NCBI RefSeq assembly: GCF_000021985.1
Contig: NC_011901.1
Location: 3,172,501-3,236,500, forward strand
Source of the DNA: Thioalkalivibrio sulfidiphilus HL-EbGr7
GTDB taxonomy: Bacteria; Pseudomonadota; Gammaproteobacteria; Ectothiorhodospirales; Ectothiorhodospiraceae
Length of the DNA stretch: 64,000 nt
Reading direction: 5' to 3'
The translations under genes and the position numbers were made by a program. The notes under the pieces are model-generated. The model made no database searches and had not been told where the DNA came from. It saw only the letters and a list, made by a program, of their open reading frames with translations. Below are positions 7,571 through 54,539 of this stretch, piece by piece. The number at the start of each line of letters is the position of its first letter. The stretch's first letter is position 1.

Positions 7571-7572
7571 GA

Positions 7573-7645
7573 AGTGGCTAGTCTCAAGTGGCAAGTGGCA
7601 AGGAAAGGCCTTTCCTTGCCACTTGCTACTAACCACTTGAGACTT
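7573..7645. repeat. Heptamer hairpin A3 (AGTGGCA family)
   Basis: AGTGGCT, AGTCTCA, AGTGGCA, AGTGGCA, then AGGAAAGGCCTTTCCT, then the mirror units TGCCACT, TGCTACT, AACCACT and TGAGACT. The centre is a perfect palindrome with essentially no loop. The element occupies the entire gltB-dnaG spacer and ends 2 bases before the dnaG ATG, leaving no recognisable Shine-Dalgarno outside the repeat. Confidence 0.9.
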
Positions 7646-7647
7646 CA

Positions 7648-11384: not shown

Positions 11385-11453
11385 AGTTTCAAGTGGCAAG
11401 TGGCTAGTAGCAAGGAGATCTTCCTTGAGACTTGCCACTTGAGACTTGCCACT
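11385..11453. repeat. Heptamer hairpin A4 (AGTGGCA family)
   Basis: Left units are AGTTTCA, AGTGGCA, AGTGGCT and AGTAGCA, followed by AGGA. The centre is only a few bases (GATCT). Right arm units on the other strand are AGTGGCA, AGTCTCA, AGTGGCA and AGTCTCA. It lies between the rpoD stop (11380) and the tRNA (11462). Confidence 0.88.
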
Positions 11454-35692: not shown

Positions 35693-35766
35693 CAGTGGCA
35701 AGTGGCAAGTGGCAAGGGACTTCAAAAGCCGTTTTCCTTGCCACTTGCTACTTGAGACTGACCACT
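35693..35766. repeat. Heptamer hairpin A6 (AGTGGCA family)
   Basis: AGTGGCA three times, then AGGGA, a centre of about 18 bases, TTTTCCT, then mirror units TGCCACT, TGCTACT, TGAGACT and GACCACT. It starts 3 bases after the acuI stop and runs into a standard terminator. Confidence 0.88.
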
Positions 35767-35800
35767 AAAAAAGCGGCCCTTTCAGGCCGCTTCAAAAAAC
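35766..35800. terminator. Bidirectional intrinsic terminator
   Basis: AAGCGGCC pairs with GGCCGCTT around CTTTCA, with A tracts on the left and right. It serves acuI (+) and, less well, the small gene at 35827 (-). Confidence 0.85.
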
Positions 35801-39379: not shown

Positions 39380-40306
39380 ATGAGTCTGTACTTCATCTCC
39401 CATCCGGCCTGTCTGGAACACCACACGCCGGCCCATCACCCGGAGCGTCCCGAACGTCTTTCCGCCATCGACGATCAGCTCATCACCTCGGGCCTGGGCA
39501 TGTGGCTGGATCACCGCGAGGCGCCCCGGGTGACCCGGGAGCAGTTGCTGAGGGTGCATGACGGGGCCTACCTGGACGAACTTGCAGGCCTGCGACCCGG
39601 GCCGGACGAGACCCTGTGCATCGACGGCGGAGATACCTACGTGTCCGCGGGCAGCCTGGAGGCCGCCAGCCGGGCGGCCGGCGCGGTGGTGCACGGCGTG
39701 GACCTGGTGATGGGTGATGCGCGCAACGTGGCCTTCTGCAGCGTGCGGCCGCCGGGCCACCACGCCGGGCGCGACCAGGCCATGGGCTTCTGCCTCTACA
39801 ACAACATCGCCGTGGGCGCCGCCCATGGCCTGGAGGCCCACGGCCTGGAGCGGGTGGCCATCGCCGACTTCGACGTGCACCACGGCAACGGCACCGACGA
39901 CATCTTCCTGCACGAGCCCCGGGTGCTGCTGTGCTCCACCTTCCAGCACCCTTACTATCCCCACGCGGGCGCCGAGGACCGCCACGGCGCACCCCGGGTG
40001 AACGTACCCCTGCCCGCGGGTACCCGCGGCGCGGCCTATCGCGCCGCGGTCAGCGACCGCTGGCTGCCGGCGCTGGATGCCTTCCGGCCCCAGCTGCTGC
40101 TGATCTCGGCGGGTTTCGACGGCCACCTGGAAGACGACATGGCCGGTTTCGCCCTGGTGGAGGCGGACTACGAGTGGGTGACGCGCGAGCTGCGCGGGAT
40201 CGCGGAGCGCCACGCCGGCGGGCGCATCGTCTCGGTCCTGGAGGGAGGCTATGCCCTGTCAGCCCTGGGACGCAGCGTGGTGGCGCACCTCAAAGCCTTG
40301 CTTTGA
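39380..40306 (+). CDS. Histone deacetylase-family protein (AcuC/acetoin-utilisation type)
   Basis: Zinc-dependent deacetylase fold, 308 aa. Catalytic and metal motifs are RPPGHHAG (about 128-135), DFDVHHGNGTDD (about 164-175) and the ISAGFD Asp (about 248). YALSALG near the C-terminus contributes the Gly-rich end. Substrates could be acetyl-lysine of metabolic enzymes or acetylpolyamines. Divergence from the Pat-type gene (212 bp apart) favours the former. The 3' end is a perfect 9-bp palindrome containing the stop. Confidence 0.9.
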   Translation: MSLYFISHPACLEHHTPAHHPERPERLSAIDDQLITSGLGMWLDHREAPRVTREQLLRVHDGAYLDELAGLRPGPDETLCIDGGDTYVSAGSLEAASRAAGAVVHGVDLVMGDARNVAFCSVRPPGHHAGRDQAMGFCLYNNIAVGAAHGLEAHGLERVAIADFDVHHGNGTDDIFLHEPRVLLCSTFQHPYYPHAGAEDRHGAPRVNVPLPAGTRGAAYRAAVSDRWLPALDAFRPQLLLISAGFDGHLEDDMAGFALVEADYEWVTRELRGIAERHAGGRIVSVLEGGYALSALGRSVVAHLKALL

Positions 40307-40308
40307 GG
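40288..40308. repeat. Palindrome formed by the deacetylase 3' end
   Basis: CCTCAAAGC - CTT - GCTTTGAGG is perfect, the stop codon TGA (40304-40306) lies in the right arm, and the next base starts heptamer hairpin A7. Confidence 0.8.
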
Positions 40309-40389
40309 AGTGGCAAGTCTCAAGTGGCTAGTGGCAAGGAAAGCCGGAGTTTGATTTACCTTGCCACTTGAGACTTGCCACTAGCCACT
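40309..40389. repeat. Heptamer hairpin A7 (AGTGGCA family)
   Basis: AGTGGCA, AGTCTCA, AGTGGCT and AGTGGCA, then AGGAAAG, a centre of about 18 bases, ACCT, then mirror units TGCCACT, TGAGACT, TGCCACT and AGCCACT. It fills the spacer between two convergent genes. Confidence 0.9.
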
Positions 40390-40392
40390 GCT

Positions 40393-43011: not shown

Positions 43012-43215
43012 GCGCTGAAACATCAATGGACAGGATGAACAGGATTATTCTGGGCTGGCAGGATAACGAGCTCAAAACCAAATGACCGGACAGGATTGAC
43101 ATGATTTACAGGATTTCAAAGTCCTTTTAATCGTGTGAATCATGTCAATCCTGTCGATTTTTTTGTTCTTCAAATCAGAAAATCCTGTTCATCCTGTCCA
43201 TTGATGGTTCAGCGC
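43012..43215. repeat. Nested inverted repeat of 9-bp units (ACAGGATnn family)
   Basis: The outer arms are about 35 bp with one mismatch (43012-43046 and 43181-43215). They consist of a gene-end segment (GCGCTGAA) plus nonamers ACAGGATGA and ACAGGATTA. An inner pair (about 43088-43116 and 43131-43156) uses ACAGGATTG, ACATGATTT and ACAGGATTT. The right outer arm includes the stop codon of the metallopeptidase at 43209. Confidence 0.88.
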
Positions 43216-43889: not shown

Positions 43890-43897
43890 GGGAGGCC

Positions 43898-43979
43898 AAT
43901 TCAAAATTCAAAATTCAAAATTCAAAGGTATCAAAACCCCGCCACCCCTTTGAATCTTGAATTTTGAATTTTGAATTCG
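43898..43979. repeat. Heptamer hairpin B1 (ATTCAAA family)
   Basis: ATTCAAA repeated four times, then AGG, a centre of about 20 bases, CCT, then TTGAATC and TTGAATT repeats. The period is 7 bp as in family A, but the unit is AT-rich. It lies between the start of the metallopeptidase gene and the stop of the next gene (both minus strand). Confidence 0.9.
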
Positions 43980-43983
43980 CCCT

Positions 43984-44415
43984 TCACCGTATCATCTCCG
44001 CCTGCCCTGGCCGGCTGCGGGTGCTGCGCTTCTTCGGGCCCTTGCGCGCGGCCATGCGCACCAGTTCGTCCTCGTCCTGCATCAGCCGGGCGCGCTGGGC
44101 CTCGGTCAGCAGGGGGTTGCGGGCCACGAAGTAGCGCAGGTTGGGATCCCGATCCGAGACGCACTGTTCCACCTGCTCGGGGGTGAGGTCGTCGCGCTTG
44201 GCGCAGTTCAGGCGCACGGTCTGGTCCATGTCCGCCAGCAGCACGGCCACTTCATCGGCGGTGAGGTCCACGCGGCGGGAGAAATAGGCCTTCACCTGGC
44301 TGTGCTGGTCGCGCACCAGGCAGGGCCGCCACCGGGGGTCCAGGTCCGCCGACAGGGCCATCCGCATGCGCTCGGGGATGGGGATCTGCTTGTAGGTCTT
44401 GAGCAATTCGTCCAT
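43984..44415 (-). CDS. Leucine-rich-variant-like repeat protein, function unknown
   Basis: 143 aa from ATG 44415 (MDELLKTYKQIPIPERMRMA). It contains short helical repeats of LRV/HEAT type (LTADEVAVLLADMDQTVRLN, DLTPEQVEQCVSDRDPNLRY, LLTEAQRARLMQDEDELVRM). A basic tail follows (KGPKKRSTRSR). The frame is open far upstream, but that part lies antisense to nadA and is rejected. A start further upstream near 44550 cannot be excluded. Confidence 0.65.
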   Translation of the reverse strand: MDELLKTYKQIPIPERMRMALSADLDPRWRPCLVRDQHSQVKAYFSRRVDLTADEVAVLLADMDQTVRLNCAKRDDLTPEQVEQCVSDRDPNLRYFVARNPLLTEAQRARLMQDEDELVRMAARKGPKKRSTRSRPGQAEMIR

Positions 44416-44568
44416 GGCGGGCGAAGGGGCTTTGTGAAATGGGTCAAAAAGTGTGCCCCGGGGTGACGCAAGGCGCAATCCTGCCGACGGCATCCAGGAT
44501 GTCAAAGCCATGCCCAACGGATAGAATGGGTTATTGGCTGTCATTGTCATTTCAAGAGGTCCACCGCA

Positions 44569-45648
44569 TTGAGCAACGCCGCCGCCCGCACCATTCCGGT
44601 CTTCCCGGTCCCCGAGACCGACCAGATCACCGCCAGCGTGCCCCATTACCAGGGCGCGGAGCTGGAGGCCGTGCGCGAGCGCATCAAGCAGCTGCTCAAG
44701 GAGAAGGACGCGGTGCTGGTGGCCCATTACTACGTGGACGGCGAACTGCAGCGCCTCGCGGAGGACACCGGCGGCTGCGTGTCCGACTCCCTGGACATGG
44801 CCCGCTTCGGCCATGAACACCCGGCCTCCACCCTGGTGGTGGCCGGTGTGCGCTTCATGGGCGAGACCGCCAAGATCCTGAGTCCCGAGAAGCGCGTGCT
44901 CATGCCCACCCTGGAGGCGGAATGCTCCCTGGACCTGGGCTGCCCCACGGACCAGTTCAACGCCTTCTGCGACGAACATCCCGACCGCACCGTGGTGGTC
45001 TATTCCAACACCTCCGCCGAGGTGAAGGCCCGCGCCGATTACGTGGTCACCTCCAGCATCGCCCTGAAGCTGGCCGAACACCTCAAGGCCCAGGGCAAGA
45101 AGCTGCTCTGGGCGCCGGACAAGCACCTGGGTGACTACATCCGCCGCCAGACCGGCGCCGACGTGGTGCTCTGGGACGGCGCCTGTGTGGTGCACGACGA
45201 GTTCAAGGCCCAGGCCCTGCGGGACCTCAAGGCCGAGCACCCGGAGGCCGCCGTGCTGGTGCACCCGGAGTCACCGGCCGCGGTCATCGCGCTGGCCGAC
45301 GTGGTGGGCTCCACCACCCAGCTGGTCAGGGCGGCCGCCGAGCTGCCCCACAAGACCCTGATCGTGGCCACCGACTCGGGCATCTTCTACAAGATGCACC
45401 AGGCGGCCCCCGACAAGACCCTCATCGAGGCCCCCACCGGCGGCCACAGCGCCACCTGTCGCAGCTGCGCCCACTGCCCGTGGATGGCCATGAACGGCCT
45501 GCACAACCTGCTCTCCACCCTGGAGACCGGCGCCAACGAGGTGCACGTGGAGGAAGCGGTGCGGGTCAAGGCCCTGCGCTCCACCCAGCGCATGCTGGAT
45601 TTCGCCCGCCAGCTGCAGCAGCCCGTGCTGGGCCGGGGTGACGCATAA
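44569..45648 (+). CDS. nadA: Quinolinate synthase
   Basis: Condenses iminoaspartate with dihydroxyacetone phosphate to quinolinate in NAD synthesis, using a 4Fe-4S cluster. Motifs include [20 protein letters not shown] (about 49-68), the cluster Cys in [11 protein letters not shown] and [10 protein letters not shown], and the substrate motif HPESP. 359 aa. TTG 44569 is preceded by AGAGG. No nadB or nadC follows. Confidence 0.95.
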
Positions 45649-45694
45649 GGATGTCATCACGGTTCACGCAAACGGATGTGCGGAGGCTCACGGC

Positions 45695-46882
45695 ATGAGC
45701 TACGCCTACCGGCACCAGCCGCTGATCCCCATGGCGGTGTTCCGCAAGCTGGCCCACAGCCTCTCGCCGGATGAACTCTCCCGCCTGCCCCCGGAGAAAC
45801 TCCCCGACAACATCCCGCTGGATTTCGTCGAGGAGGTGCCCCTGTACTCCCGCTCCGCGGTGGAGACCCTGATCCTGGCCGCCAACGCCTACCATCTGCA
45901 GCAGCGCATGGCCATCCAGGAAGTGTTCGGCGAGGACGTGCTCAACGCCCTGGACCGTTCCAAGCGCACCGGCAACAAGGCCAACGTGAAGATCTTCCGC
46001 CAGAAACTGTCGGACCTGGAAAAGCTCGATCAGCAATGGCGCCAGCAGGGTGACGACCTCTCCCTGCAACGCCTGGTCGCCAGCCTCAAGACCTTGAACG
46101 GCCTGCTCATGGACGTGCGCGCCGAGGTCACCGAGGCCACCCGTGCCGCGCGCCTGCTGCGCGCCCAGCACCCGGACTACGAGCAGATGGCCACCTTCGA
46201 GGAGGCCATCGCGCGCCTGCACGCCCACGCCGAGGACATCGAGCTCCTGCTGGCGCGCTTCTACCTGATCCGCACCGGCATCAGCCACCACGAGATGCAG
46301 GCCAAGGCACGCCAGATCGGCCAGCTGGACGAGGACTTCCGGCGCCTGGGTGAGCAGATCGAGGACCTGCGTGAACAGCTGGAGCGTTCCCAGGCCCTGT
46401 GGCGTCGCGCCCTGGTGCGCGGCAAGGCCAACCTGGAGGGCGAGCAGCTGCAGCAGCGCATCTCCGATATGGTGGCCGAGCAGCGGGCCAAGGAAGTGGT
46501 CATCTCCGAGAACGATCTGACCCTGTGGCTGGACGCCATCGTGGACGCCAGCCTGCACCCCTTCACCCGCAAGAAGGTGGCGCGCAGCATCAGCGAGGCG
46601 CGCATGGCGCTGTACACCCTGCTCAACCGCTACTGCCTGCAGCAGGAACAGTCCGCCATGCAGATCGCACGCAACCCCTTCCTGCAGGTGGACCCGGAAG
46701 ACGCCATCCGCTTCATGCTCATGTCCGAGCAATTCATCCTCAACTACTTCGCCCGCAAGCGGAACGAGAACACCGCCTGGATCAGTGACGTGGCCCAGGT
46801 GAAGAAGGACGATCTCGACGCCCTGGAGCGGGACATCCTCACGGAGCTCAAGCGCTCCAGCAAGTTCATGAGGAAGGGCTGA
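45695..46882 (+). CDS. Unknown protein with long coiled-coil
   Basis: 395 aa from ATG 45695. I do not recognise the family. It is strongly helical, with coiled-coil stretches (ALDRSKRTGNKANVKIFRQK, QIGQLDEDFRRLGEQIEDLR split) and no signal peptide or membrane helix. It lies 46 bases after nadA on the same strand, so the two may be co-transcribed. A cytoplasmic structural or scaffold role is only a guess. Confidence 0.75.
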   Translation: MSYAYRHQPLIPMAVFRKLAHSLSPDELSRLPPEKLPDNIPLDFVEEVPLYSRSAVETLILAANAYHLQQRMAIQEVFGEDVLNALDRSKRTGNKANVKIFRQKLSDLEKLDQQWRQQGDDLSLQRLVASLKTLNGLLMDVRAEVTEATRAARLLRAQHPDYEQMATFEEAIARLHAHAEDIELLLARFYLIRTGISHHEMQAKARQIGQLDEDFRRLGEQIEDLREQLERSQALWRRALVRGKANLEGEQLQQRISDMVAEQRAKEVVISENDLTLWLDAIVDASLHPFTRKKVARSISEARMALYTLLNRYCLQQEQSAMQIARNPFLQVDPEDAIRFMLMSEQFILNYFARKRNENTAWISDVAQVKKDDLDALERDILTELKRSSKFMRKG

Positions 46883-46895
46883 TTCACAAACCATG

Positions 46896-46984
46896 ATTCA
46901 AAATTCAAGATTCAAAATTCAAAGGTAAAACCAGCAAATCTCCGTTGTTTCCCCCTTTGAATTTTGAATCTTGAATTTTGAATC
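46896..46984. repeat. Heptamer hairpin B2 (ATTCAAA family)
   Basis: ATTCAAA, ATTCAAG, ATTCAAA and ATTCAAA, then AGG, a centre of about 32 bases, CCCCC, then TTTGAAT, TTTGAAT, CTTGAAT and TTTGAAT. Like B1, it is flanked on the right by a stop-proximal GGGCGA (minus-strand TGAGGGCGATTC here, TGAAGGGCGAATTC at B1). Confidence 0.9.
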
Positions 46985-46988
46985 GCCC

Positions 46989-48233
46989 TCAAACCGTCTG
47001 CCGATGCCCGCCCGGCTTCCACGCCGGCGCGATCACGTTGGGCATGTCGGAGCGCGACAGCAGTCGCGCCGGCGCCAGGGTGAATTCCCCGTAGCGGCGG
47101 TTGATGGCGTCCATCACCCCGTGGGCCGCCCGCACCCGGGCCTGGTCGGCGGCGCCGGGGGCCTGCCCGGCATCGAACAGCTCCAGCTGCCCGGCCGCCG
47201 GGCAGGGCTCCAGGGCGGTGATCTGCACCTGGCTCACCCCCTCCCCCGACCAGTGTTCGTTCAGCATGCGCCGGCACAGGGCGTTGAGCTGGCGGCTGTC
47301 GTCGGTGGCCACCGCCGTGCGGTAGGTGCCGCCGATCCAGCCGTAGTCGGCGCGCAGGCCGATGAAAAAGCGCAGCGCCAGCAGGTCGTGGCGGCGCAGG
47401 CGGGTGCCCACCTTGAAGGCCATGTGCTCCAGGTAGGTGAGGATCACCGCCCGCTCCCGGGTGCCCGGGGGCATCACCTTGCCGTGACCCAGGCTTCTGG
47501 GCGGCGCGATGCGCGTCTCCACCGGCGTGGGATCACGCCCCTGGGCCATGAGCCAGATACGCCGCCCCAGGTTGCCGAAGCGCCGCGCCAGCTCGCTCAC
47601 CGGCAGCTGCGCCATGTCGCCGCAGGTGTAGACCCCGCGCTGTTCCAGGTACCCGCCGATACCCCCGGCGATGCCGCACAGCTCCGTGACCGGCACCGGC
47701 GCCAGGCGCGCCGCCGCTTCCCAGGGGGGGATCACCGTGAGCCCGTCGGGCTTGTGCTGCTTGGCGGCCCACTTGGCGGTGGTCTTGTCCCCGGACATGC
47801 CCACGGAACAGGGCAGCCCCGAGGCCTCGCGCACCGTGTCCTTGACCCGCCGGGCGATCACCTCGGGCGGGCCCAGCAGGCGCTGGCAATGGGTCACGTC
47901 CAGGAAGGCCTCGTCCACGGAGAACACCTCCAGGTCCGGGGTGACGCTCTCCAGGGCGGTCATGATGTCCGTGGAGACCCGGGCGTAGCGCTCGGGCCGG
48001 GCCGGGATCTGCAGGATGTCCGGGCACAGTTGCCGGGCCTCCTTCAGGCGCATGCCGGTGCGTACCCCGTGGGCCCGGGCCTCGTAGGATGAGGTGATGA
48101 TGCAGGTGCCGGTCTGGCCGTTGGTGATGCCCACGGGCCGGCCGCGCAGCTCAGGATGATCCAGCTGCTCGATGGAGGCGAAGAAGGCGTTCATGTCCAC
48201 CAGCACGATGGCCCGTTCCCAGGGTTCGGACAT
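46989..48233 (-). CDS. Y-family translesion DNA polymerase (UmuC/DinB-like)
   Basis: 414 aa. The catalytic motif VLVDMNAFFASIEQ lies at about 10-23 and SVDEAFLDVT at about 103-112, which supply the metal-binding carboxylates. The thumb helix-hairpin-helix (TELCGIAGGIGGYLEQRG) and little-finger domain follow. It starts 6 bases after the LexA-like stop, so the two form an operon similar to umuDC but with a full LexA-like repressor. The protein probably performs mutagenic bypass of lesions. Assignment to UmuC versus DinB is open. Confidence 0.9.
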   Translation of the reverse strand: MSEPWERAIVLVDMNAFFASIEQLDHPELRGRPVGITNGQTGTCIITSSYEARAHGVRTGMRLKEARQLCPDILQIPARPERYARVSTDIMTALESVTPDLEVFSVDEAFLDVTHCQRLLGPPEVIARRVKDTVREASGLPCSVGMSGDKTTAKWAAKQHKPDGLTVIPPWEAAARLAPVPVTELCGIAGGIGGYLEQRGVYTCGDMAQLPVSELARRFGNLGRRIWLMAQGRDPTPVETRIAPPRSLGHGKVMPPGTRERAVILTYLEHMAFKVGTRLRRHDLLALRFFIGLRADYGWIGGTYRTAVATDDSRQLNALCRRMLNEHWSGEGVSQVQITALEPCPAAGQLELFDAGQAPGAADQARVRAAHGVMDAINRRYGEFTLAPARLLSRSDMPNVIAPAWKPGGHRQTV

Positions 48234-48833: not shown

Positions 48834-48837
48834 GGCG

Positions 48838-50822: not shown

Positions 50823-51024
50823 CCTGTTCTCTCGCGGAGACGCGGAGGCGCAGGGAAAAATCATCTGCAATAGGCTTTTCCGTGCCCCCGTGGCTCCGTG
50901 AGAGGGATTTGTTTTCAGCAGGACCCGGCAAACCCCATGTGCTCTCACGGAGCCACGGAGGCACGGGGAGAACCAAATCAAGACGTTTCTTTCTCTGCGC
51001 CTCCGCGTCTCCGCGAGAGAACAG
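50823..51024. repeat. Nested double hairpin of 9-bp units (CGCGGAGGn family)
   Basis: The outer arms (50823-50855 and 50990-51024) read CCTGTTCTCTCGCGGAGACG and continue as nonamers; the inner arms (about 50880-50906 and 50941-50971) use the variant CACGGAGCC, CACGGAGGC. Both run into purine runs (GGGAAAAA, GGGGAGAA). The unit consensus is close to that of the CACAGAGGn element at 54383. Confidence 0.88.
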
Positions 51025-51039
51025 GGGTTCCCTAAACCT

Positions 51040-51575: not shown

Positions 51576-51821
51576 TGACTCGGGCCATCCCTGGCCCTCG
51601 CCCCTGCGGGGCAGTGCGCATTCGCGCACTGTCAGATTGGCCTTCCTGCCAACCTAATGACTCGGGCCATCCCTGGCCCTCGCCCCTGCGGGGGCAGCGC
51701 GCATTCGCGCACTGTCAGATTGGCCATCCTGCCAACCTGATGACTCGGCCCATCCCTGGGCCTCACCCCTGCGGGGCAGTGCACTATCCGCACTGTCAAT
51801 CCGGCTGTCCTGCCGGATTAA
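51576..51821. repeat. Three tandem structured units of about 82 bp
   Basis: Units start at 51576, 51658 and 51741 (82, 83 and 81 bp). Each contains the same series of hairpins: GGGCCA-TCCC-TGGCCC, CCCC-TG-CGGGG, CAGTGCG...CGCACTG and TTGGC...GCCAA. Unit 3 has changed both sides of the first stem (GGCCCA/TGGGCC) and the last (ATCCGGC/GCCGGAT), keeping pairing. No protein frame fits. The array ends near the tRNA-Arg trailer. Confidence 0.85.
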
Positions 51822-54382: not shown

Positions 54383-54539
54383 TTAGCCACAGAGGACACA
54401 GAGGTCACAGAGAAAAGATCGGAAAGCAACATCGCTCTTGATTTGTGATGTGCTCCGGTTCCCGCACCGGGGTCGAAGGCCGCGCAATCGCATTCCTCTA
54501 GTCTTTTTCCTCTGTGACCTCTGTGACCTCTGTGGCTAA
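54383..54539. repeat. Hairpin of 9-bp units (CACAGAGGn family)
   Basis: The left arm (54383-54411) is TTAGC then CACAGAGG-type nonamers, ending in GAGAAAAG; the right arm (54509-54539) is the mirror image. The centre of about 97 bases is unique and contains the small hairpin CCGGT...ACCGG near 54458. The spacer 54368-54751 holds this element and the sigma-54 promoter region. Confidence 0.88.

Follow-up and report, generated by a model that had tools for sequence, protein, structure and literature searches.

Short tandemly repeated repetitive (STRR) heptamers are known in cyanobacteria. Simple sequence repeats (SSRs) of 7-nt units have been described from Xanthomonas and Nostoc (GGGAATC and GGGGAYT); those of Xanthomonas stand mostly four to an array and mostly between genes, and convergent inverted pairs number 70 in Xcc and 75 in Xac (PMC4692102). 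They were interpreted as G-quadruplex repeats, and the part of that report available to us gives no link to the IVP protein family (PMC4692102). In Geobacter metallireducens, pairs of octa- or heptanucleotide repeats on opposite strands, the paired 'global regulator sites', were proposed as binding sites for IHF/HU, again with no link to a gene in the available part of the report (PMC2700814). The TAACTGA repeats of Beggiatoaceae likewise form abundant intergenic heptamer arrays, but these are direct arrays that lie mostly upstream of start codons, with one inverted case among about 170 sets (PMC4679880). The intervening sequences (IVSs) of rRNA genes consist of one IVP gene between inverted repeats and have been called selfish elements; the Xanthomonas homologue of their protein forms a pentameric ring (PMC4990558). 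In the IVS of Coxiella, located in helix 45, three GACAGAT heptamers, whose number varies between strains, precede the S23p open reading frame (ORF), and excision of the IVS from RNA by RNase III was shown in vitro (PMC4990558). IVP genes have also been reported in rRNA inserts of the candidate phyla radiation (CPR; PMC11270868), and IVP was listed earlier among the functions found in cas loci (PMC3936711). Here, we report an analysis of two heptad hairpins, B1 and B2, in a 64-kb window of the Thioalkalivibrio sulfidiphilus HL-EbGr7 genome (contig NC_011901.1, positions 3,172,501 to 3,236,500; 'the window' is this whole stretch of 64,000 nucleotides). They carry the same kind of arm as minute one-gene elements that occur across many phyla and are known mostly as inserts in rRNA genes.

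Several components of this picture are already published: the IVS as a selfish element with heptamers, the inverted pairs of Xanthomonas, the paired sites of Geobacter, and IVP in cas loci and CPR inserts. A general tie of heptad or octamer hairpin arms to IVP genes, or to genes of the GxxExxY nuclease family, was not found in our searches of the open-access literature (PMC, preprints excluded). Such a tie offers a single explanation for repeats described separately as G-quadruplex SSRs, IHF/HU sites and rRNA inserts, and it gives IVP ('four helix bundle') and GxxExxY, two widespread families without known function, a concrete partner in the repeated word of their own arms.

A sequence-only reading of the window had described B1 and B2 as heptad hairpins of one period with AGG/CCT at the base of the loop, and both statements hold. 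Each arm contains four ATTCAAA-type units in near-perfect pairing, and Tandem Repeats Finder reports period 7 with 90-100% matches in all four arms. In B1, 35-nt arms that are 94% complementary enclose an 18-nt loop; in B2, the 31-nt arms are 100% complementary and the loop is 28 nt long. The predicted RNA folds have energies of -37.9 to -46.0 kcal/mol (z of -10 to -12), and none of 200 shuffles was equally stable. Both hairpins thus consist of tandem 7-nt units, as heptamer SSRs do, and, as in IVSs, their terminal inverted repeats form a rod by pairing. No IVP (S23p) ORF lies between their repeats, and both are intergenic and outside the 23S rRNA gene; because the ORF and the rRNA site are both missing, we file them as gene-less relatives and not as IVSs. 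Nor do they have CRCRRAK-unit arms around a PD-(D/E)XK gene, the arrangement of the GxxExxY type described below. B1 and B2 are very probably gene-less members of a class of hairpins whose arms repeat a seven-letter word, typically AG followed by five variable letters. Their parts are listed in Table 1 with the related hairpins of the window; the genome itself is denoted G000 and its congeners G249, G250, G251 and G252, the last being a species 95% identical.

Table 1. Parts of B1 and B2 and related hairpins, in window coordinates.
Feature	Position	Strand	Basis
B1 left arm, 4 x ATTCAAA, end AAAGG	43894..43928	+	tandem-repeat and inverted-repeat scans
B1 loop, unique sequence, identical in G252	43929..43946	.	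genome comparison
B1 right arm, complementary heptads	43947..43981	-	tandem-repeat and inverted-repeat scans
B2 left arm, 4 heptads ATTCAAA/ATTCAAG	46895..46925	+	tandem-repeat and inverted-repeat scans
B2 loop, inverted in the 95% identical species G252	46926..46953	.	genome comparison
B2 right arm	46954..46984	-	tandem-repeat and inverted-repeat scans
AGTGGCA-family hairpin, IVP-type heptad arms, family tied to IVP gene L032	2872..2966	.	inverted-repeat script
AGTGGCA-family hairpin	7571..7646	.	inverted-repeat script
AGTGGCA-family hairpin	11390..11453	.	read by eye, missed by script
AGTGGCA-family hairpin, at synteny break vs G252	35693..35760	.	inverted repeats and genome comparison
AGTGGCA-family hairpin	40306..40392	.	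inverted-repeat script
GGGAAGTG-family hairpin, family tied to IVP gene L033	119..182	.	read by eye
GxxExxY-type hairpin, 9-nt units (GACAGGATGAACAGGATT)	43012..43215	.	inverted repeats and genome comparison
GxxExxY-type hairpin, 8-nt units, interior inverted in G252	50823..51025	.	inverted repeats and genome comparison
GxxExxY-type hairpin, 9-nt units (CACAGAGGA)	54383..54539	.	tandem-repeat and inverted-repeat scans

The genome-wide count that the sequence-only reading called for shows a dispersed family. The array ATTCAAAATTCAAAATTC, with one mismatch permitted, occurs 96+87 times in the genome and its reversed pattern 0 times, and the strict whole ATTCAAA hairpin has 30 copies in 3.46 Mb, again with 0 for the reversed-pattern control. 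An origin in low-complexity AT sequence is ruled out by these zero controls and because the window is 66% G+C. The congeners hold 26 (G252), 2 (G251), 2 (G250) and 4 (G249) strict copies. In the window, an inverted-repeat script found 13 inverted repeats, nine of them with periodic arms by the cut used, and 0 in one shuffle of the window; one of the nine, at 48837, looks like another palindrome. The hairpin at 43012 fell narrowly below the periodicity cut, and two more with weaker pairing were added by eye. The units are of 7 nt (ATTCAAA, AGTGGCA and GGGAAGTG) or, in the hairpins at 43012, 50823 and 54383, of 8-9 nt. Extrapolated from the window and from the array matches of the one family, such hairpins would number in the hundreds per genome.

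Such arms enclose the members of two small gene families. All three IVP genes (PF05635) of the genome lie between inverted heptad arms when read in context, and each has another arm type: ATTCAAA for L031, AGTGGCA for L032 and GGGAAGTG for L033. This supports the proposal that different units in one architecture point to one mechanism, and more strongly than the sequence alone allowed: every one of the three families includes a hairpin that holds an IVP gene, a different one in each. The arms of a sister class are built from units of 8-10 nt, mostly CRCRRAK with a linker, and the enclosed gene codes for the GxxExxY PD-(D/E)XK nuclease (PF13366); all five of these genes in the genome lie between arms of such units, those of L037 being of a variant, GACAGGATT type. 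Pfam and NCBIfam confirm the families of L031, L034 and L035. The ATTCAAA-armed gene L031 stands between the genes of two succinyl-CoA ligase subunits, and the GxxExxY gene L035 between those of the small and large carbamoyl-phosphate synthase subunits, in each case in the same direction.

This association was quantified by local alignment of the 350 bases upstream of each gene with the reverse-complemented 350 bases downstream, a score of at least 30 being counted as arms, with shuffled partners and shifted positions as controls. In the own genome and a phylum sample, arms flanked 23 of 32 IVP genes (shuffled 1/64, shifted 1/125) and 25 of 33 GxxExxY genes (shuffled 6/66, shifted 2/128); in the congeners they flanked 15 of 16 IVP genes (shuffled 3/32, shifted 7/57) and 12 of 12 GxxExxY genes (shuffled 1/24, shifted 0/47). 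The high shifted rate of the IVP congeners is probably due to other hairpins in those genomes. The loci of the phylum sample, which comprises 249 genomes (42 with IVP, 47 with PF13366), are best-scoring matches and not random draws, and the short-flank loci L052, L216, L212, L069 and L220 were left out of these counts. In named genomes spanning Pseudomonadota, Cyanobacteria, Acidobacteria, Bacteroidota, Clostridia, Planctomycetes, Fibrobacteres and others, 61 of 80 IVP loci, the best 80 of at least 580 confirmed candidates and not a random set, had arms (shuffled 2/160, shifted 2/290); their best period was 7 in 49, 8 in 8, 14 in 3 and 9 in 1. Plasmid records matched in 18 of 72,556 cases for IVP L031 (tblastn, 1e-5) and in 8 for GxxExxY L035, and a phage vector was rejected with 0 of 50,697 phage records matching L031 (tblastn, 1e-5), single queries that miss distant phage or plasmid members. 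Period-7 arms were present in 4 of the 4 plasmid IVP flanks examined among the 18; CRCRRAK arms were present in 2 of the 4 plasmid GxxExxY flanks examined among the 8 (scores 36 and 45; the others score 22 and 24). Two cyanobacterial plasmids, one from Pseudanabaena galeata (L298) and one from Anabaena sp. 90 (L299), carry a heptad-armed IVP element between the cas6 and cas4 genes.

The arm units are diverse (AGGGAAT, AGTGAAT, AGTAGGC, AGGATTC, AGTTGTC and others), the commonest word being AG plus five letters with AG on the coding strand upstream of the gene. In 36 of 61 upstream IVP arms AG keeps one register in at least 75% of the heptads; the next dinucleotide, GG, does so in 23, and CT in 3 of 61. 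Upstream, exact AG chains most commonly reach a maximum of five units (17/61), and of two in 16/61; downstream the maximum is five in 13/61 and two in 14/61. In GxxExxY arms, CRCRRAK cores lie 8, 9 and 10 nt apart in 14, 32 and 17, respectively, of 65 gaps of up to 12 nt (63/65). The word is thus polarised relative to the gene. Two of the Geobacter site classes can be read in the same terms: class 2, TCTCCGTS[Y] x3, is by our own reading the GxxExxY-type word on the other strand, and class 3, MTYCTGA x5, is a heptad with CT/AG (PMC2700814).

Units and proteins are inherited together. Over 93 armed loci (those scoring below 34 were left out), IVP protein identity correlates with unit similarity at r = 0.33, a value reached in 0 of 1000 permutations. 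Units are shared by 35 of 42 pairs at 70% identity or more (27/34 at 70-90%, 8/8 above 90%) and by under 2% of pairs below 55%; some of this correlation is from common descent, as an element predicts. The occupant of a site can also differ: the L032 site in G251 holds another IVP gene (58% identical, with one internal stop) with other arms, and the L034 and L038 sites in G252 each hold another GxxExxY gene with other arms. Between co-oriented neighbours, taken as ORFs chosen by length and not as annotated genes, IVP genes are sense in 72 cases and antisense in 6 (112 loci) and GxxExxY genes in 27 and 1 (33 loci), in total 99 versus 7; the congeners, outside this total, give 12 and 2 (28 loci). 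The L031 gene starts within about 50 nt of the inner arm, which makes read-through of host transcripts a natural reading.

One member of the class stands in an rRNA gene. In G251, an IVP gene with heptad arms (L206) lies inside the large-subunit (LSU) rRNA, inserted near model position 1218, which we take to be helix 45. This element ties the classic rRNA IVS to the heptad-arm class, and rRNA IVSs are in our interpretation the class members that sit in 23S rRNA. The IVS has been described as an rRNA insert with its heptamers as direct repeats upstream (PMC4990558), whereas here the arms define the element, some copies, such as B1 and B2, lie between genes and hold none, and the word varies by element.

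It could be argued that the hairpins are regulatory structures of the host (terminators, RNase III sites or chromosome-binding, IHF/HU-like sites near gene ends) and that the IVP and GxxExxY genes joined them later as passengers. The two genes that flank B1 are both on the minus strand, and the hairpin stands 8 nt ahead of the start of one of them, a PF04298 metallopeptidase gene; as had been noted, no Shine-Dalgarno sequence is visible in between, and B1 may, as was also suggested, affect translation. B2 is flanked by a plus-strand gene and a minus-strand Y-family polymerase gene. Such positions near gene ends recall the Xanthomonas heptamers (PMC4692102), the opposite-strand pairs of G. metallireducens were themselves proposed as IHF/HU sites (PMC2700814), and arm pairing persists while interiors invert or change. 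A terminator scan found nothing at B1 or B2, but it covers loops of 3-8 nt and cannot judge hairpins whose loops exceed that limit. In the alignment with G249 and G250 no hairpin is seen at the B1 site, and both genomes keep the metallopeptidase gene. Regulation by the host leaves it unclear why the units differ between elements within one genome and track IVP sequence, why two small gene families sit inside such arms and shifted positions only rarely do, and why one member lies inside 23S rRNA; we consider it unlikely.

The explanation that we favour is instead an element whose arms are read by its own protein. It would ride on host transcripts; its arms would pair, in RNA or in single-stranded DNA, into a rod that RNase III could trim; and a ring-shaped IVP pentamer may read the AG heptads in either nucleic acid, with about one heptad per subunit. 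IVP would spread arms rather than interiors, because the interiors of gene-less copies are mostly unrelated to one another. Candidate routes for writing the arms are help to a reverse transcriptase, in the manner of the Avd protein of diversity-generating retroelements (DGRs), or repair of a cut hairpin. We regard the mechanism in this form (IVP ring reading, RNase III trimming and IVP-driven arm spread) as an even call, and the whole explanation, class membership together with mechanism, as rather probable. A broader version is tentative, and we lean slightly away from it: a phylum-spanning, transcript-riding class in which a heptad-coded arm pair is the spreading unit, the reader is ring-shaped and Avd-like and the interior is interchangeable (a gene or any DNA), uniting the 23S rRNA IVSs, the heptamers known from Xanthomonas, from cyanobacteria and from Geobacter, and the intergenic hairpins that number hundreds in a genome, with a parallel GxxExxY version that codes for a nuclease. 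The role of the IVS protein, an old question, becomes directly addressable by a binding assay.

The predicted structures bear on the reader. The IVP model (pLDDT 96.6) matches 2gsc and 2rld with Z 17, each deposited with five chains, and the solved IVP XCC0516 comes from Xcc, a species with heptamer SSRs. The next matches are DGR Avd and Avd in DGR reverse transcriptase complexes (Z 12.5-13.0, TM 0.74-0.80), a four-helix bundle on which the IVP model superposes. The GxxExxY model (pLDDT 95.9) has E23, D63, E73 and K75 (numbered as in the L034 alignment) invariant over 12 sequences, and its best Foldseek matches are Cas4 SSO0001, LHK-Exo and lambda exonuclease (best E 0.0035, none at 0.001). 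A reverse transcriptase family (PF00078) match occurs in four of the five genomes of the genus, once and far away in the own genome. No reverse transcriptase was seen between the arms read at the IVP and GxxExxY loci of the genome, where template/variable repeats were not searched for.

The interiors of the gene-less hairpins set them apart from ordinary mobile repeats. Among 73 loops of at least 14 nt in sampled G000 DNA, seven matches between loops were found (six distinct pairs), so that interiors are mostly unique; since the loops also hold no more gene relics than the control, it is the arms and not the interior that copies share. Shared arms around unique interiors are the strangest feature of the class, and we can name no known mechanism that explains it well. 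Miniature inverted-repeat transposable elements (MITEs), passive copies moved by an unrelated DDE transposase, would account for short sequences with many copies and terminal inverted repeats, and the short matches between flanks are slightly longer than in shuffles (mean 2.2 versus 1.5 nt; 35 of 2000 shuffles attain the observed mean). The copies of a MITE have a common interior, however, and these hairpins mostly do not; at 23 hairpins there is no duplication of fixed length (below 3 nt at 9, 3 nt at 9, 4 nt at 2, 5 nt at 2 and 6 nt at 1); and clean empty sites, seen for the MITE-like elements of these genomes, were not seen for the hairpins. MITEs fit poorly and are very improbable. Repetitive extragenic palindromic (REP/REPIN) elements of the Y1 transposase RAYT can scarcely be the source: Y1_Tnp genes occur in all five genomes (26 matches), and the eight loci examined of these have no heptad-array arms, several having non-periodic inverted repeats; RAYT/REP was rejected on this ground.

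The sequence-only reading had also placed a shared GGGCGA beside the right-hand stop codon. This is true of B1 and B2 (window 43979-43985 and 46984-46990) but not general: only 4 of 23 ATTCAAA hairpins have the motif at a distance of at most 9 nt from an arm, the others being at L268 10071 and L275 10058. It is enriched, base frequency expecting 0.15, and may reflect a choice of target; its use as a universal target motif was rejected.

Between close species this layer of intergenic structure changes rapidly. About 263 kb were compared with G252, in stretches chosen round ATTCAAA hairpins, which biases any hairpin density derived from them. Of 91 hairpins tried (90 periodic by the cut, plus 43012), 34 had no usable anchors; of the 57 anchored on both sides, 37 are the same, 5 are inverted, 6 have the same arm family with other content, 5 have another family and 4 have no strict hairpin. 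Two of the six with other content align better inverted, and three of the four without a strict hairpin have weak arms of another family. The 43012-43215 site has only a short gap in G250 and G249 and a different hairpin of 8-nt units in G252. In G000 its outer arms continue into the adjacent gene at that gene's 3' end (GCGCTGAA.. / ..TTCAGCGC), which looks as though local flank had been copied inversely. The synteny with G252 breaks at an AGTGGCA hairpin (window 35693-35767, L110 331-1000). At about 3091-3190 of L223 in G252, compared with L036, the gene ahead of an AGTGGCA hairpin seems to take its stop codon from that hairpin; G000 has no hairpin there.

Mutation alone could be proposed for such changes, slippage and template switching making and homogenising quasi-palindromes with no protein involved. 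B1 has four units per arm here and five in G252, a change present in both arms; L207 has the unit AGTTCAA in both arms; and at 43012-43215 the outer arms repeat sequence from the end of the adjoining gene. Slippage and template switching may well be how arms stay matched. As the full account they are quite unlikely, leaving unexplained both the dispersed copies of a few fixed words and the link to IVP and GxxExxY genes with its controls.

Other observations weigh against the favoured explanation of an IVP-read, arm-spreading element. No movement of an element was observed, and at the other-family sites the intergenic stretch is replaced and not cleanly inserted into. The IVP element between the succinyl-CoA ligase genes is common to all four congeners, so some copies are old and quiet. 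In gene-less loops, relics of IVP or GxxExxY genes amount to one weak match in 21 (control 1); together with the mostly unique interiors, this means that gene-less hairpins are not plain deletion copies of a gene-bearing element. The lack of a uniform target duplication and the weakly raised, unexplained flank matches count here as well, as do the 19 of 80 named IVP loci that score below 30 and the reversed arms in which AG keeps one register (20/61). The link from IVP to Avd is only a lead, because unrelated helical bundles reach Z 12.6 in the same match list, and a genome-encoded reverse transcriptase was rejected as an obligatory helper, since G251 has IVP elements and no PF00078 match. The S23p ORF of Coxiella, moreover, is probably unexpressed in vivo according to the available part of that report (PMC4990558).

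The compared stretches contain further repeats. MITE-like elements with palindromic ends (e.g. TTAACCCGCATATTTCA) have clean empty sites between G000 and G252: L268 6420-6675 (G000), L249 16169-16327 and L256 846-1025 (both G252), and L275 10752-10959. A second MITE-like kind, at L110 1501-1739, is absent at window 34602. In G252, L256 7254-7635 has an assembly gap flanked on both sides by TGTCAGT heptads, more than ten in each array; G000 has no such array at that place. An 83-bp tandem repeat of 2.7 copies lies at window 51576-51798, and related pieces occur elsewhere in G252, G250 and G251.

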